A stretch of 64,000 nt of DNA, taken from assembly GCA_023382385.1 (NCBI GenBank), contig JAHDVH010000002.1, positions 186,001 to 250,000 on the forward strand, written 5' to 3'. The notes under the pieces were generated by a model that worked only from the letters and a program-made list of their open reading frames with translations, searched no databases and was not told the origin of the DNA. Source of the stretch: a bacterium. Lineage in GTDB: Bacteria > Electryoneota > RPQS01. Below, one piece after another: positions 8,028 to 14,865 of this stretch (position 1 is the first letter of the stretch; each line of letters opens with the position of its first letter). A program made the translations under genes and the position numbers.

Positions 8028-9086
8028 TCACTTCAGCTTGATGGATAAGCTGACTCGGTGCGTGGTGCCCAGGTCGCGCGCATAGTAGGCGTAATCGGCG
8101 GTCACGCGCCACAGAGCGATTCCCGCACCGGCGGACCATTCGTCGTGCCACAGTCCACCGCGCAGAAACAGCACATTTTCGAACGCATACTCGATTCCCG
8201 TGTGACGGCGGCGCTCGTAGCGCTTTTCCGTTTCATAAGCCAGCGTCAGGCGGCTGTTGCGGCCCGGCATTTTCTGTTCGAGCGAAATTGAGCTGTAGAT
8301 ATTTCGCGGCACAGCATCCTTCACTCCTTCACCCCAATCCACTTCTGTCCGCGTCGCGTCCTTGACAACGATACCGTAACTAAGCCGTGCCTTCCACGCT
8401 TCGTAAACGATCTCATCCATCGGGAAACGCACCTGCGCGCCAGCGTCCACGCCGATTCCCGTGCCGGAAGCCGTACCCAGTTTTTGATTGATGAGCTTGA
8501 GATTGACGCCGATCGGCACTTCGACGGGCATGGTGAAGTACGACCAGCCCCAGTCAATATTAAACTGATTGTATTTGGCGAACGTAAAGAAAAGAGCGGA
8601 TTCGCTGTCCGAAAACAGTCCGCGCGGCGCGGCACCCGTTGCCAGCAGATACTCCTGCACCGAGTTGACGTAAATCGTATCGCCGTTCACAATGACGTAA
8701 CGCAAGGACGGCGGGCGCGAGAGAATGTCGGCCACAACTTGATCGTAATTGGGATGCTGTTCAATATCCGGCACGCCCAACCGCACATAATTCACGGCAA
8801 AGACCGAACCCGTCACGGGCAGCGTGATGCCTGTGGACGAGAAGTTCGCCAATCCATCCCACAAATCCGCGTACATTCCGGTAGCCTGAATGCCGGAAAC
8901 AAAGCCCATTCCCGCGGGGTTCCAATAAAAGCTCGACCCGTCGTAGGTATGCGAGGCCATCGCTCCGCCCATGGCAATTCCGCGCGCGCCTACACCCAGT
9001 TCGAGAAACTCTCCGGCGTATTTCGCGGCAATTGCAGGAAGCGATAGAAGCAGCAATAGTGTGATGCTGACAAAGAATCGTTTCAT
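8028..9086 (-). CDS. porV: PorV/PorQ-family outer-membrane beta-barrel protein
   Basis: A 352-residue outer-membrane protein with a signal peptide and the family signature GVGARGIAMGGAMASHTYDGSSFYWNPAGM. This is shared by PorV (LptO), PorQ and FadL-like barrels, in which periplasmic-facing residues are followed by about 14 strands. It ends in an amphipathic strand (HRVSLSIKLK). In Porphyromonas gingivalis porV lies directly after porU and the two proteins form the outer-membrane attachment complex; the order here is the same. ATG at 9086 overlaps the porU stop as ATGA, showing translational coupling. Assignment as PorV and not another paralogue rests mainly on this linkage. Confidence 0.8.
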   Translation of the reverse strand: MKRFFVSITLLLLLSLPAIAAKYAGEFLELGVGARGIAMGGAMASHTYDGSSFYWNPAGMGFVSGIQATGMYADLWDGLANFSSTGITLPVTGSVFAVNYVRLGVPDIEQHPNYDQVVADILSRPPSLRYVIVNGDTIYVNSVQEYLLATGAAPRGLFSDSESALFFTFAKYNQFNIDWGWSYFTMPVEVPIGVNLKLINQKLGTASGTGIGVDAGAQVRFPMDEIVYEAWKARLSYGIVVKDATRTEVDWGEGVKDAVPRNIYSSISLEQKMPGRNSRLTLAYETEKRYERRRHTGIEYAFENVLFLRGGLWHDEWSAGAGIALWRVTADYAYYARDLGTTHRVSLSIKLK

Positions 9087-12000
9087 TTGCGCACCTTTGC
9101 CAGCTTGACGATGGTCTCGATCTCTTCCTTGCCTTGCTTGGCGATGATCTTCGCGAAGTAGACACCGTTTGCCACTTCCTCGCCCTTGTCGTCGCGGCCG
9201 TCCCATTGCAGCGTCCGGTAGTTGACCGTCGCGCGTTCAATTTCGCGCAATGTGCGGATATGTCGTCCGGACACGGTGTAGATCTTGGCTTCCGTGAATT
9301 GATCCGTGACTCCCGTCAACACATAAGCAATGGTTGTGTTTTGCGCAAACGGGTTGGGATAGTTAATCGCCCATTCAAAACCGAAGTCCCGCCGCACGTC
9401 AAACTGCGCGTCGTAGGTCGACGTATTGCCGTGATTGTCTGTGGCGATCACCCGCAGCACATGCGTTCCGGGTTCAAGGTCGGGTTCGATCATCGCACTC
9501 AGCGTGTTCGCGGTCCACGACTCGTCGTTCCATGTGATCAAACTTGGTGAAATTGTATCACCGTCGAGAATCAAATGAAATGCCGTGTCGTTTCGCATCA
9601 CGCCAGCCGGATCACGGAAGGTCGTAAAGATCTGTGGACGGCTGGGAACAATGGCTCCCTGCGTGTAGCGCAGGCCGCCGATACTGACTTCGATGGTCGG
9701 TCCCTGTGCGTCAAAGACGCGAAACAGAGCCAACTCTCCAAGCGTGGCAACTTCCCCTGACACGCGCAGGTGCCACGTCACCAATGTGTCAAGCGAAGGA
9801 TTTCCCGGATTCAGTATGCGCGTCGAGTCGGTTGGAATTCGCGTGACCGTCGTATTGCGCGCGCGCACCCACTGTTTGAGCTTCGGGTCTCGCGCATATA
9901 TCGCATAGTTTGCCGACGGAACCTGACTGCGCAGCGTGTCGCGGCCATCAAGCGATATGGTCACCATCGCGCGGAAACTGTCGGACAGCGAACCGAGCGA
10001 ATCGTCGAACAACGCCGAAAAGACGCCGTGGGTGCTTTGCGTGAACGGCCTGCGCAGACCCTTACTCGAGAGTTCCGCCTGCTGAGCTTGTGTTAGCAGC
10101 ACGGGCTGCGAATAACCTATGGCTGCGCTGTCCCGCGGCAGAATTCCCGGGAAAACGCGCACTTCGAGCGTATCATTGCCGGTCACGGACCAGTATTTGT
10201 GCGGCCCGACGTTTAACGGTCTGGTCAGGAAGGTTCCCAGCTGCCGCGTGGCCGGATAGTAGCTCGGCATGTTGATTTCGAACGTGCGCGAGTTGTTGCC
10301 TTCGCGGGTTTCGCGAATCAGATTGTCCGGATCGATGGTGATGTTGACGTTCCAGAGTCCGGGACGGAATTCCGTGGGAATCCACGCTTCGCGCTCATAT
10401 TCACCGAACGACAGGTTGGGCAGCAGATGATTCACCGTAAACGAGTCGACGCGCACGGTGATGGTGTTCCCGCCGGACGTGTAGGTTGAATCACGCGTCG
10501 CGGTCAAACGAATCGTGACATTGTCCAACTGCGCGGTGCTGCCCGTGCGCTGTACGGAAAACGGCTGATAATAGTAAGGCCGGCGGCCTCCGCGCTGTGC
10601 GGGCGACGCCGAAATCACGAACGAGAGATTAAAATCGGGAGAGCGTTCCAGCGGCAGACTGAAATAATCTGATTCGAACTCCGTGCCGCCGACAGGCGTC
10701 ACAAAGAACTTCACACGATAGGTCGCGCCTTCAAAGTCATACGGGCCGATGTCTCTCACAGTTGTGTATACGCTCGGCGCGGTCTCCACCATACTCATCG
10801 TGTCCAGTCTGACTGGCCCCTGCGCCGGAGTGTAGAGTCCACGGAATCTCACGCTCTGAATTGCGTCCAGATGCAGGATAAGCGACTGGACACGGAACGG
10901 TTCACCGCTGAACGCGACCGAATCCGGAACGGCTTCGATATCGAGAAACTGCACGGTGGAGAGACTATCGGCAAGATAAATTGGGAATCTGCCGATGGCG
11001 TTGCGCCTGAGCGCAGGATTAGTCACATAGACCACCACATTGCCACGCGGAGTGACAAAACGATTCAGCGGTACGGCATCCGATGTACAGATTTGAGTCG
11101 TGTAGAACTGCGGGTCTATCTGATTCTGATTGAAGGCCGGACTAAACGTGGTCACCAGCACTGGTGAGCCGAAGTTCGACGGCCGGCGCCGGTCGCCGTT
11201 GTAGGGCAGCACATAGGCGTAAGTCACGGTGGACGAATTCTGCTGCCACGGCAGGGTCATGATAACACGCAGGGAGTCCGGATTTCCCAGGCTGTCCCGC
11301 GATCTGACGATGTTGGATTCAGCAAAAATGCGCGGCTCGAACTCTTCCTGAGGAATCTGCAGTTTTACACCCGGGTCACCGAGCAGATTCATCATCATCA
11401 TCATCGAGTAATTCGAACTCCAGCCGAGCGGAGTACTGCTCGCGCTCCACCAGCGCGCTTTGTTCAGCGCGGCGGCTTCGCCCATCGTGTAGCCCGGCTG
11501 CTGGAGGAAGAAGTCGTAAAGCCTGCGCTGCATGGATTGCCCGGCGATAGCCCATCCGACTCCTGAAGAACTGTAGAATCCAATCGCGCCGACAATGTCG
11601 TTGTTGTTATTGCGCGCAAACAGGAAGGCTTCGCCGAGTACCGAAGCCTGGCTGCGGTCATCGAACGCGCCGACATAGCAGGTGAAGTTCGTGATAAAGG
11701 GGAACGACTCGCGGTTGTTCAACAGGCGCACACCGCCGACGTTAATCAGCGAACTTCCCGACCACACACCACCGCCGCCGTGTCCGTTGTAATTTGCTGC
11801 CACACAACCGTCGCGCAAGGCGTCCCGCAGCGCAATCGGCCCCTGTCCGGCGGGAATGCTGTCGAGATACACGCGGGTCACATTCACCGTGGTGTTTTCC
11901 ACCATGGCCTTCACCGCAGGTTCGGAAAACGCGGCGACGAAATCGAGCGGAGGAGGACCGGAGTCGTAGTAGTCCGCAACCATCAGCACGTTGCTCGGGG

Positions 12001-14503
12001 TGCGGTTCTCAAAGTCCGGGTCGGTCTCGTAGATGAACACCTTTCGGACGTAAGTGCCCAGTTCCTGCGGCGTCCGGCAGGAGATTCGCCCGACGGCGAT
12101 GTCCGGTATGATGTCCCAGTGCGGTCCCGAGATGCAGCCCATGATATAGTCGGCGGAGGAGACTCCGAAGGCATAGGTCGGAATAGCAAAGGTGGGAATC
12201 TGATTTCCCGGAATGTTGTTCTCTCGCTGTTCCAGCACGGCGTCGCCGACCAGACAGAGATGCGTGGGCCGCACACTCCAGTGGTCGTAGGCGTACATCA
12301 TAAAGTCGCGCAAAGCGTAGGGCGTTATCAGTCCGCCGGAGAACTGTTCATAGACTTCAGACAGCGGAATCGTTAACACAGAGTTGTTGAAGTTGATACG
12401 CCGCAGACTGTCCAGCAGCCGCACAGACGTATCGGCATAGAACGGGTCGTAGACGACCATCACATATTCCGCGCCGGGATGATTACGCAAGTCCACTTGC
12501 ACGGAGTCCGGCACCACCAGAAATGGCTGCGCGATGTAATTTTCGCCGAACACCAGCACATCACGCGGCCCGTCGGACACAAGCGGGAATCTCACTGCCC
12601 AGCTTGCGGACTCATCCGCGGGAGTGACGCGGCGCGTTTCCAGATTGGTCAGGCGACTGTGTCCGAGCTTCCAGACTTGAATATTCTGTGACGGGAAGCC
12701 GCGAATATCGTACGCGGCCGTGTCTCCGACGTTGCGATTGAAGTCGAAGCGAAATTCGCCGTTGCGCGAGCGCATGTCACGCTCATACTCAACCTCGAAC
12801 CAGTTGACCAGAATCTTGTCGGCGGTACCGGCAATTTGATTTCCCGGGACGTGAACGGTAATCACGTTGTTGCCGTTCACAAGGTTTGAGGTCAGGATGT
12901 TGTTTGTCCCCGCTGTCCGGTCGGTTTCAAAGATAATCGGAGCTTGGCCTCCCCATTGCGGTGCGGGGTCGCTCGCGTGCTGCCGTCCGGCGGTTAAGCC
13001 GTTGTCCGACAGGCCGTTCAAGGAGACACGGACGTAATGGTTATACCCCGGAGTCGAGCTGAATCCGGTCAGACAGGCGCGCACAACCACCGGTTCAAAA
13101 CTGAAGGGAGCGTTGGGATTGGGAAATGGCAGATAGGCTTCGAAATCGCGTGACGAGAGTGCGTCAATGCGCTCGCCCCAGAACCAGTGGTCCTGCAACA
13201 GATTATGCGGGCCTTTGCGATAGAGGTCCGCTCCGAGCACGCTCGAGAGCTGGCTCAGTCGGTCAAAATAGCGATCGCGTTCGAAGTGCAGCTTCACACG
13301 CACGCTGCGCACCGGCTGGAGATTCCAGACGGACTGCCACGTGCCGTTGACTTCGCCCATGCGCAGCCCGGGCCGCCCGTCGCCCCAAAAGAGCTGATAG
13401 CAATTTTCGCTGGAGAACGGGTCCTGCCAGAGCGATGGAATACTTTCTACGTACGTACGCTCATTGCGTTCGCCGAAGAAGTCGATGTGGTCAAACTCAT
13501 CGAAACGTCCGTCTTCCTGACCTTCGACAACGATAGGAATCTCGCGTCCCTTATTCCAGATATGCAGGTCCCACGGGGTAATCTGGTCAATCGGCACACC
13601 CATCGTCCGCAGATACTCCCCGGTCAGCCGGATGATACTGGTTTCGCGGACGTAGATGCGCCAACGATTGACGTTGAAAATCGGGAAGTCGTCATCCAAA
13701 GCGAAGCGTTCGCGCTCTTCGCGGACGTCCGGCCGACGAGTGGGCAGGGCAGTATCTGCGAACTTCCCCAGCATTTTCCGCAGAGTGTGGTTCTCATTGT
13801 AGCTGTCCGGCAATCGCATTTCGTTATTTGACGAAATAGGCAATGAGACTTGCAGCCTTGCTCTCGTGAGAACCCTGCCAACTCCCGTTAATGTATTGAT
13901 TTGCACGGGATTGACGTGTAGTGACATGAGCCGATGACCGCGGTAAATCCCGGCCTCTGTGACTTCTGCCACACGTTCAGGACGCGTGCCGGAGACTTTT
14001 TCGGTCCGGCGCATCCGTTCCCGCATAGACAAGCCCGCCAGCGGATCAACCTTCGCCCAGAAGGTGTCGGGACTCGACGAGCTGGGGCGTTCATCCACAA
14101 TGAAGTCCTCAGGCATCGGCAAGCATTCACCGAGATTCAGCGGTTCATACTCCGCTTCCACCAGCGTGACCGTCACCTGACCTGGCAATGCCTCGAAAAG
14201 CTCGGCCGCCCTCGGCAGCAACAGCACGCCCGGTTCGTGCACAGGGTCGAGTGTTCCCATTTGCACTTCGGTCACGGCACCGCTTTCCTCGTCCCGTACG
14301 AGTTCAACGGGCGGAGCGTTCCACTCCAGCAGAATCCGGTCAGGTCGGATTTCCAGCACATTCAGCCCGGGCTTGACCTTCTGCGCCAAAGATTTGCCTG
14401 TAAACCCTGCATTCTTTTGGGCATAGGTGAAGCCCTGCCAGACCAGCACGGCCAAACAGGTTAAGAGTATGATTTGTATTTTCTTAGACTTCACAGATGC
14501 CAT
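9083..14503 (-). CDS. porU: T9SS sortase PorU, long form (gingipain-like C25 peptidase)
   Basis: A 1806-residue secreted protein that in characterised systems cleaves C-terminal sorting domains and attaches cargo to the cell surface. After the signal peptide (KKIQIILLTCLAVLVWQGFTYA) come a propeptide-like region, then a caspase-fold C25 domain. Catalytic His is in NYNGHGG (about residue 906) and catalytic Cys in NFTCYVGAF (about 941), the same spacing as gingipains. Several Ig-like modules follow, ending with a FlgD/T9SS-type C-terminal module (NYPNPFAQNTTIAYVL ... WDGRDDKGEEVANGVYFAKI). It is much longer than Bacteroidota PorU (about 1150). ATG at 14503 was chosen since it starts a standard signal peptide; no Shine-Dalgarno is seen. 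An upstream ATG at 14554 lies inside the structured leader. Confidence 0.9.
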   Translation of the reverse strand: MASVKSKKIQIILLTCLAVLVWQGFTYAQKNAGFTGKSLAQKVKPGLNVLEIRPDRILLEWNAPPVELVRDEESGAVTEVQMGTLDPVHEPGVLLLPRAAELFEALPGQVTVTLVEAEYEPLNLGECLPMPEDFIVDERPSSSSPDTFWAKVDPLAGLSMRERMRRTEKVSGTRPERVAEVTEAGIYRGHRLMSLHVNPVQINTLTGVGRVLTRARLQVSLPISSNNEMRLPDSYNENHTLRKMLGKFADTALPTRRPDVREERERFALDDDFPIFNVNRWRIYVRETSIIRLTGEYLRTMGVPIDQITPWDLHIWNKGREIPIVVEGQEDGRFDEFDHIDFFGERNERTYVESIPSLWQDPFSSENCYQLFWGDGRPGLRMGEVNGTWQSVWNLQPVRSVRVKLHFERDRYFDRLSQLSSVLGADLYRKGPHNLLQDHWFWGERIDALSSRDFEAYLPFPNPNAPFSFEPVVVRACLTGFSSTPGYNHYVRVSLNGLSDNGLTAGRQHASDPAPQWGGQAPIIFETDRTAGTNNILTSNLVNGNNVITVHVPGNQIAGTADKILVNWFEVEYERDMRSRNGEFRFDFNRNVGDTAAYDIRGFPSQNIQVWKLGHSRLTNLETRRVTPADESASWAVRFPLVSDGPRDVLVFGENYIAQPFLVVPDSVQVDLRNHPGAEYVMVVYDPFYADTSVRLLDSLRRINFNNSVLTIPLSEVYEQFSGGLITPYALRDFMMYAYDHWSVRPTHLCLVGDAVLEQRENNIPGNQIPTFAIPTYAFGVSSADYIMGCISGPHWDIIPDIAVGRISCRTPQELGTYVRKVFIYETDPDFENRTPSNVLMVADYYDSGPPPLDFVAAFSEPAVKAMVENTTVNVTRVYLDSIPAGQGPIALRDALRDGCVAANYNGHGGGGVWSGSSLINVGGVRLLNNRESFPFITNFTCYVGAFDDRSQASVLGEAFLFARNNNNDIVGAIGFYSSSGVGWAIAGQSMQRRLYDFFLQQPGYTMGEAAALNKARWWSASSTPLGWSSNYSMMMMMNLLGDPGVKLQIPQEEFEPRIFAESNIVRSRDSLGNPDSLRVIMTLPWQQNSSTVTYAYVLPYNGDRRRPSNFGSPVLVTTFSPAFNQNQIDPQFYTTQICTSDAVPLNRFVTPRGNVVVYVTNPALRRNAIGRFPIYLADSLSTVQFLDIEAVPDSVAFSGEPFRVQSLILHLDAIQSVRFRGLYTPAQGPVRLDTMSMVETAPSVYTTVRDIGPYDFEGATYRVKFFVTPVGGTEFESDYFSLPLERSPDFNLSFVISASPAQRGGRRPYYYQPFSVQRTGSTAQLDNVTIRLTATRDSTYTSGGNTITVRVDSFTVNHLLPNLSFGEYEREAWIPTEFRPGLWNVNITIDPDNLIRETREGNNSRTFEINMPSYYPATRQLGTFLTRPLNVGPHKYWSVTGNDTLEVRVFPGILPRDSAAIGYSQPVLLTQAQQAELSSKGLRRPFTQSTHGVFSALFDDSLGSLSDSFRAMVTISLDGRDTLRSQVPSANYAIYARDPKLKQWVRARNTTVTRIPTDSTRILNPGNPSLDTLVTWHLRVSGEVATLGELALFRVFDAQGPTIEVSIGGLRYTQGAIVPSRPQIFTTFRDPAGVMRNDTAFHLILDGDTISPSLITWNDESWTANTLSAMIEPDLEPGTHVLRVIATDNHGNTSTYDAQFDVRRDFGFEWAINYPNPFAQNTTIAYVLTGVTDQFTEAKIYTVSGRHIRTLREIERATVNYRTLQWDGRDDKGEEVANGVYFAKIIAKQGKEEIETIVKLAKVRK

Positions 14504-14522
14504 AGCAAGTGCAATAAACGAG

Positions 14523-14637
14523 AAATTCGCTAACCACCCCTCCGCTCCATGCATGCCTCAAACAGACCACTCCCGTTGCGGAACACGGCCTGACCAATCG
14601 CGAGGTTACATCGAACGGAGAAAAGGTTAGCGAATTT
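14523..14637 (-). ncRNA. Predicted structured 5' leader of porU (possible riboregulator)
   Basis: Two arms, 14613-14637 and 14523-14547, are complementary over 25 positions when read as minus-strand RNA. There are 13 perfect Watson-Crick pairs (AAATTCGCTAACC / GGTTAGCGAATTT), then one U-U mismatch, three G-U pairs, CTCC/GGAG plus flanking pairs and one more G-U. On the plus strand the same positions would be C-A mismatches, so folding is strand-specific to the porU message. The enclosed 65 bases contain further short helices (CCUC/GAGG, CCGU/ACGG). The element starts about 28 bases after the predicted transcription start and ends 20 bases before the porU ATG. I do not recognise a known riboswitch class. 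Confidence 0.6.
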
Positions 14638-14671
14638 TCGCTGTGGGACTCTCAATATCGATAGACTCACG

Positions 14672-14700
14672 AGTATAGGTATCTTTTTCCAACATGTCAA
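14672..14700 (-). promoter_or_regulatory. Sigma70 promoter of the porU operon
   Basis: On the minus strand TTGACA, 17 bases, TATACT: a near-consensus promoter. Predicted start near 14665, leaving about 160 bases of leader before porU, which holds the structured element. Confidence 0.8.
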
Positions 14701-14836: not shown

Positions 14837-14865
14837 TTGAAGTCCTGCATAAAATTCGCTATAAT
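14837..14865 (+). promoter_or_regulatory. Sigma70 promoter of pgi
   Basis: TTGAAG, 17 bases, TATAAT, ending 55 bases before the pgi ATG. Divergent from the porU promoter. Between the two (14701-14836) I see only a 6-base inverted repeat GGTCCC...GGGACC and no gene. Confidence 0.8.

Follow-up and report, generated by a model that had tools for sequence, protein, structure and literature searches.

The gene of a PorU-family sortase of the type IX secretion system (T9SS) lies on the minus strand of the window (the whole stretch of 64,000 nucleotides that we analysed, positions 186,001 to 250,000 of contig JAHDVH010000002.1, assembly GCA_023382385.1), directly behind a region whose transcript may fold into a long hairpin. 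This raises the question of whether porU has a leader RNA and what such a leader would do. A sequence-only reading had proposed a structured leader downstream of a near-consensus promoter, with two pairing arms that would be selected in the RNA of the porU strand and not as a DNA palindrome. We analysed this region in the window and in related genomes. The coordinates of the features are listed in Table 1.

Table 1. Position of the features of the porU locus and of the 6S-like RNA loci
Feature	Position	Strand	Description
PorU-family T9SS sortase gene	9083..14503	-	C25 peptidase, type A sorting domain; ATG at 14503; no Shine-Dalgarno sequence
PorV2/PorV-family protein gene	8028..9086	-	follows porU, with an overlap of a few bases
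porU promoter	14672..14700	-	29-bp block; -35 TTGACA at 14700-14695, 17-bp spacer, -10 TATACT at 14677-14672
Imperfect dyad in promoter spacer	14690-14678	-	GGAAAAAGATACC
5' tail of leader RNA	14641..14666	-	about 25-31 nt; length and G-rich motif conserved in nine leaders
GAG/GGAG-containing motif in 5' tail	14653-14649	-	
Unbranched rod hairpin	14518..14640	-	123 nt, about 49 pairs; MFE -63.5, z -8.0
Closing stem, 5' arm	14625..14637	-	AAATTCGCTAACC, consensus AAGUUCGCUAAGC
Closing stem, 3' arm	14523..14535	-	GGTTAGCGAATTT
U-rich tract abutting stem	14513..14525	-	TTTCTCGTTTATT, terminator-like; 5 T of 8 here
6S-like RNA loci	L082:1501-1730, L083:1501-1706, L084:1501-1718, L085:1501-1710, L086, L088		

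The porU and porV2 genes

The assignment of porU to the PorU-family sortases held: its product matched NF033707 with an E value of 1.9e-76, yet below the curated NCBIfam cut-off, and TIGR04183 above the cut-off. The PorV2-like gene that follows matched NF052325 (E 6.5e-27, below cut-off). The gene order porU-porV2 is retained in G001, G005, G008, G011 and G012, and SprA/Sov was found in nine of the ten tested genomes of the order. We infer that this order, with its two families f1 and f2, is to be placed in RPQS01 of the phylum Electryoneota, where RPQS01 has been named as a class (PMC10439189).

The leader folds as one unbranched rod

Read from the minus-strand sequence, the proposed arms (14637-14613 and 14547-14523) pair over 25 positions; the only mismatch is U14624/U14536, and the porU strand has four G-U pairs, at 14623, 14622, 14621 and 14615. 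The arm boundaries of the sequence-only reading were correct; however, the hairpin extends further, to 14518 and 14640, and the supposed 65-base core with short helices turned out to be a continuation of the same rod. The whole is a single 123-nt hairpin, continuous and without branches, and the 25-base arms make up its lower half.

Folding of 14500-14700 gave -72.3 kcal/mol for the minus strand (z -3.9, with none of 200 shuffles as good) and -52.1 kcal/mol for the plus strand (z -2.3). For the hairpin alone, the z score of the sense strand compares with -4.8 for the antisense strand. Local folding of 800 kb of the window's genome, on both strands, revealed two qualifying rods (unbranched, 90-140 nt, -60 kcal/mol or lower, at least 80% paired), namely this hairpin and another one with 76% GC; no second copy of the hairpin was found in this genome. 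A search of the window leader with Rfam covariance models showed no match up to E 10, and the same search with the nine porU leaders described below none up to E 1, known riboswitches included.

Conservation of the hairpin in porU orthologs

Orthologs of porU were located by protein search and their upstream DNA was inspected afterwards, which keeps the finding of a conserved leader free of circularity. The comparison covered nine leaders, from G000, G001, G005, G006, G007, G008 and G010 (f1) and from G011 and G012 (f2), with PorU protein identities of about 38-69% across these two families of one order; porU fragments of G003, G004 and G009 lack the 5' end and remained outside the comparison. 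The layout of promoter, tail, rod, matching 3' arm, U-rich tract and ATG is the same in all nine. Their hairpins are of near-constant length (123-129 nt), next to the stem comes the U-rich tract, and the ATG follows 21-31 nt later. A porU start inside the rod (ATG 14554, in the G000 frame), with a coding 3' arm, was rejected: G006 has an in-frame stop and the other genomes a different frame, and the conserved porU start therefore lies after the U-rich tract.

On the sense strand the ortholog hairpins fold with z scores of -2.2 to -9.4, the two weakest single folds being those of G007 (z -3.2) and G012 (z -2.2). The sense strand is more stable than the antisense strand in every one of the nine, in line with the proposed strand-specific selection of an RNA; the antisense fold of the hairpin is likewise better than expected by chance.

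In alignment A4, which is sequence-based, the 13 closing pairs were paired to 88.9%, and pairing dropped to 26-48% when the 3' side of the stem was slid (44-48% for a slide by one column). Four of the 13 pairs have changes on both sides. The covariation score of the closing stem is 0.308, compared with 0.175 in shuffles, and none of 500 shuffles reached 0.308. The closing stem is conserved in sequence as well as in pairing; the interior drifts but remains paired. Folding of the interior only beats shuffles with a Stouffer z of -11.3, which is an upper bound since the nine genomes are related. Outside close relatives the interior is difficult to align. A model of the complete outer rod, built on three close genomes (R2), was too narrow for the more distant leaders and gave matches on antisense strands as well, so that covariation rests on the closing stem in A4 and on the fold statistics.

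Conserved helices with compensatory changes, the support that the sequence-only reading had asked for, were present 5' of porU in all nine testable genomes. The element keeps its position, its strand and its pairing, the last with compensatory change, as is characteristic of a cis-acting leader. Judged by this comparison of sequences, the hairpin is a real, order-specific leader RNA of porU.

Linkage to porU and distribution

A hairpin model built from the nine leaders (R1) detected a single sense copy in each of these genomes, always at porU, and no copy in the 282 others among 291 genomes searched; the scores of the nine are circular by construction, and only the absence elsewhere is informative. 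Dispersed copies were absent, and with one copy per genome a MITE or REP element was rejected. G002 (same family, 97% complete) has SprA/Sov, and neither a porU ortholog nor the hairpin was found in it. This genome carries other C25 proteins.

The gene divergent from porU is pgi in six genomes, a sodium-solute symporter gene (SSS) in G010 and a GNAT acetyltransferase gene in G005, the latter two named from their sequence alone. The leader thus remains with porU while the divergent neighbour varies, which argues that the element belongs to porU. A divergent promoter, TTGAAG-17-TATAAT, is found at 14837-14865 and at the same place in relatives, with a conserved spacer CATAAAnTTCG; G005 and G010, whose divergent gene is one other than pgi, have it too.

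No such leader was found at PorU-like genes in other families of the phylum: inspection by eye of the porU upstream regions of eight genomes of other families, two of them shortened by contig ends, revealed neither rod nor promoter block. A different conserved promoter-like block, CTTGCAA ... TTTATCTTATT ... TCGGCA, precedes PorU-like genes of family f7 (L107, L109, L110, L111), and these genes have no leader hairpin.

Promoter and 5' tail of the porU leader

The promoter TTGACA-17-TATACT is sigma-70-like with 11 of 12 matches, as the sequence-only reading had recognised. TTGACA and a -10-like box were found in all nine porU leaders, and each of the nine genomes has the 29-bp block exactly once, always 5' of porU. 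Its spacer is strongly conserved (TGGAAA or TGGTAA, then CC, in 9/9). A transcription start ahead of the arms, on which the earlier proposal depended, is predicted in all nine genomes by this conserved promoter upstream of the hairpin; it would lie some 6-7 nt past the -10 box. From there, a 5' tail of 26-32 nt leads to TTCG(C/T)TA in the nine leaders.

Between -35 and -10, the spacer also contains an imperfect dyad, GGAAA-n-TTTCC, which is kept in nine genomes and specific to the porU promoter; it looks operator-like. A block GGAAAACTAAnnACTTGnAG located some 20-40 nt ahead of the porU -35 is conserved in five of seven f1 genomes (L023, L024, L025, L027, L030) and degenerate in the window's genus; it is a possible activator site.

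Terminator-like features of the leader

Intrinsic terminators are recognised by a stem with a U-run directly next to it. In all nine leaders a stem and then a U-rich tract follow the promoter and precede the first gene; the tract, which the sequence-only reading had missed, touches the stem base without spacing. Eight of the nine genomes reach 7 T or more in 8 nt there, a density found anywhere in the last 45 nt for one among 42 other genes of the window. A U-tract that abuts the stem in nine leaders and is T-dense in eight, together with the similar end of a 6S-like RNA (see below), makes premature termination the most likely reading. Also in its favour is a short terminator of the classical type in G012, whose stem ends in a similar way. 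Against it count the U-tract of the window's own genome, which is the weakest of the nine (TTTCTCGT) and for which termination there may be poor, the only moderate GC content of the closing stem, and the consideration that a plain terminator would need neither a constant 125-nt rod nor a conserved stem sequence.

No conserved antiterminator was found in the 5' half, where RNAalifold on leader plus 5' arm gave no structure. The candidate AGCGAA-AA-UUCGCU over the 5' arm is possible in G000 and G001, is weaker or absent elsewhere, and was rejected. By sequence, no conserved upstream reading frame with ATG, GTG or TTG was found in the f1 leaders. The f2 leaders (L028, L029) contain GGAG-7 nt-TTG ACC GTT CGC TAA just before or overlapping the 5' arm; a leader peptide MTVR-stop with upstream GGAG, possible in both f2 genomes, was rejected since f1 has no start codon for it. 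Because neither antiterminator nor leader peptide was found, we call the leader attenuator-like and do not file it as a proven attenuator.

Interpretation of the leader

With moderate confidence, we read the leader as an intrinsic-terminator-like attenuator of the porU-porV2 transcription unit with read-through set by a factor. From its dedicated promoter, a leader RNA would be made that folds as a long rod on the porU strand. Closing stem and U-tract would act as an intrinsic terminator at which RNA polymerase mostly stops, a share of the transcripts would end at the U-tract and give a free RNA about 145-160 nt long, and only read-through would yield porU-porV2. Sortase production would probably depend on passing this stop, and it is in this sense that we infer control of porU by the leader. 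The letters of the closing stem are conserved beyond the needs of pairing, which suggests a bound factor; this factor would set read-through and make contact at the conserved letters UUCGCUAA/UUAGCGAA. A ligand for the porU leader was not found.

A more far-reaching idea, which we consider improbable, is a delayed terminator whose closing stem could form only after about 125 nt, with a conserved rod length and a drifting interior. Here a dedicated RNA-binding factor on UUCGCUAA/UUAGCGAA would couple synthesis of the T9SS sortase to a secretion or envelope signal, and the leader would represent a new class of leader RNA.

The leader could also act post-transcriptionally, as a structured 5' UTR without termination in which the rod serves processing or stability, as an RNase III substrate or by blocking 5' decay, and the U-rich linker is a landing site for the ribosome or S1 on an mRNA without a Shine-Dalgarno sequence. 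About 50 bp of near-continuous duplex stand immediately 5' of the start, most of the nine leaders have no Shine-Dalgarno sequence, unlike other genes of the window, and both the weak U-tract in the window's genome and the keeping of a double strand by a drifting rod interior fit such a role. We regard this as possible but rather unlikely, as it leaves the zero spacing between U-tract and stem base (9/9) and the sequence conservation of the closing stem unexplained.

The dedicated, strongly conserved promoter found nowhere else, the constant length, and the resemblance of closing stem and U-run to the 6S-like RNA of the lineage would suit a stand-alone trans-acting sRNA with its own promoter and terminator before porU, which would then be transcribed by leakage only. 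However, such an RNA has a constant linkage to porU though the other neighbour changes, was not found in G002, which has no porU, and would have a non-conserved interior, contrary to the need of a base-pairing RNA; there is also no room for another promoter between U-tract and ATG, and we judge this explanation quite improbable. A DNA-level inverted repeat (TTCGCTAA ... TTAGCGAA), be it a protein-bound palindrome, a cruciform or a relic of a mobile element, agrees with the above-chance folding of the antisense strand but is hardly credible given the more stable sense strand in 9/9 with its G-U pairs, a spacing that varies by up to 6 bp and breaks helical phasing, and a single copy without dispersed relatives.

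Comparison with known systems

Like intrinsic-terminator attenuators (PyrR, T-box, riboswitch operons), the porU locus has a dedicated promoter, a leader, a stem with U-rich tract and then the first gene. In contrast to these, the porU leader lacks both a second hairpin that would exclude the first and a known ligand-binding core, and consists of a 125-nt rod with drifting interior and without Rfam match. With 6S RNA (RF00013) it shares the long unbranched shape, the size, a closing stem with U-run, an own promoter and a downstream gene, but not the large central bubble or an Rfam match. An identity with 6S RNA was rejected because 6S matches below threshold that have the expected closing stem sit at other loci. 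This divergent 6S-like RNA was found in G001, G003, G007, G009, G010 and G011; it is about 210-230 nt long, scores below the Rfam gathering score and lies just upstream of a small gene, and its closing stem AUCCCUGC/GCAGGGAU is followed by a U-run. The RF00013 search of the window's own genome did not find a 6S-like RNA.

In the literature that we found, known control of T9SS is exerted by promoters and sigma factors. A PorY-PorX-SigP cascade acts on T9SS gene promoters in Porphyromonas gingivalis (PMC4800418), and porU of Flavobacterium psychrophilum is listed under an alternative sigma-factor promoter class (PMC9723704); the main text of the latter names structured 5' regions, and porU is not among them. 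Control of porU or T9SS in both species is promoter-based, like the dedicated porU promoter described here, but initiation there involves an alternative sigma factor, whereas the porU locus of the window combines a sigma-70-like promoter with a structured leader. A small sample of the literature contained no report of a leader RNA on any T9SS gene.

The porU leader would be a new RNA family with a clear end point, the stop or read-through at one U-tract. Conserved in two families and equipped with its own promoter, it would be a direct handle on the control of type IX secretion after initiation in uncultured relatives of the Bacteroidota.
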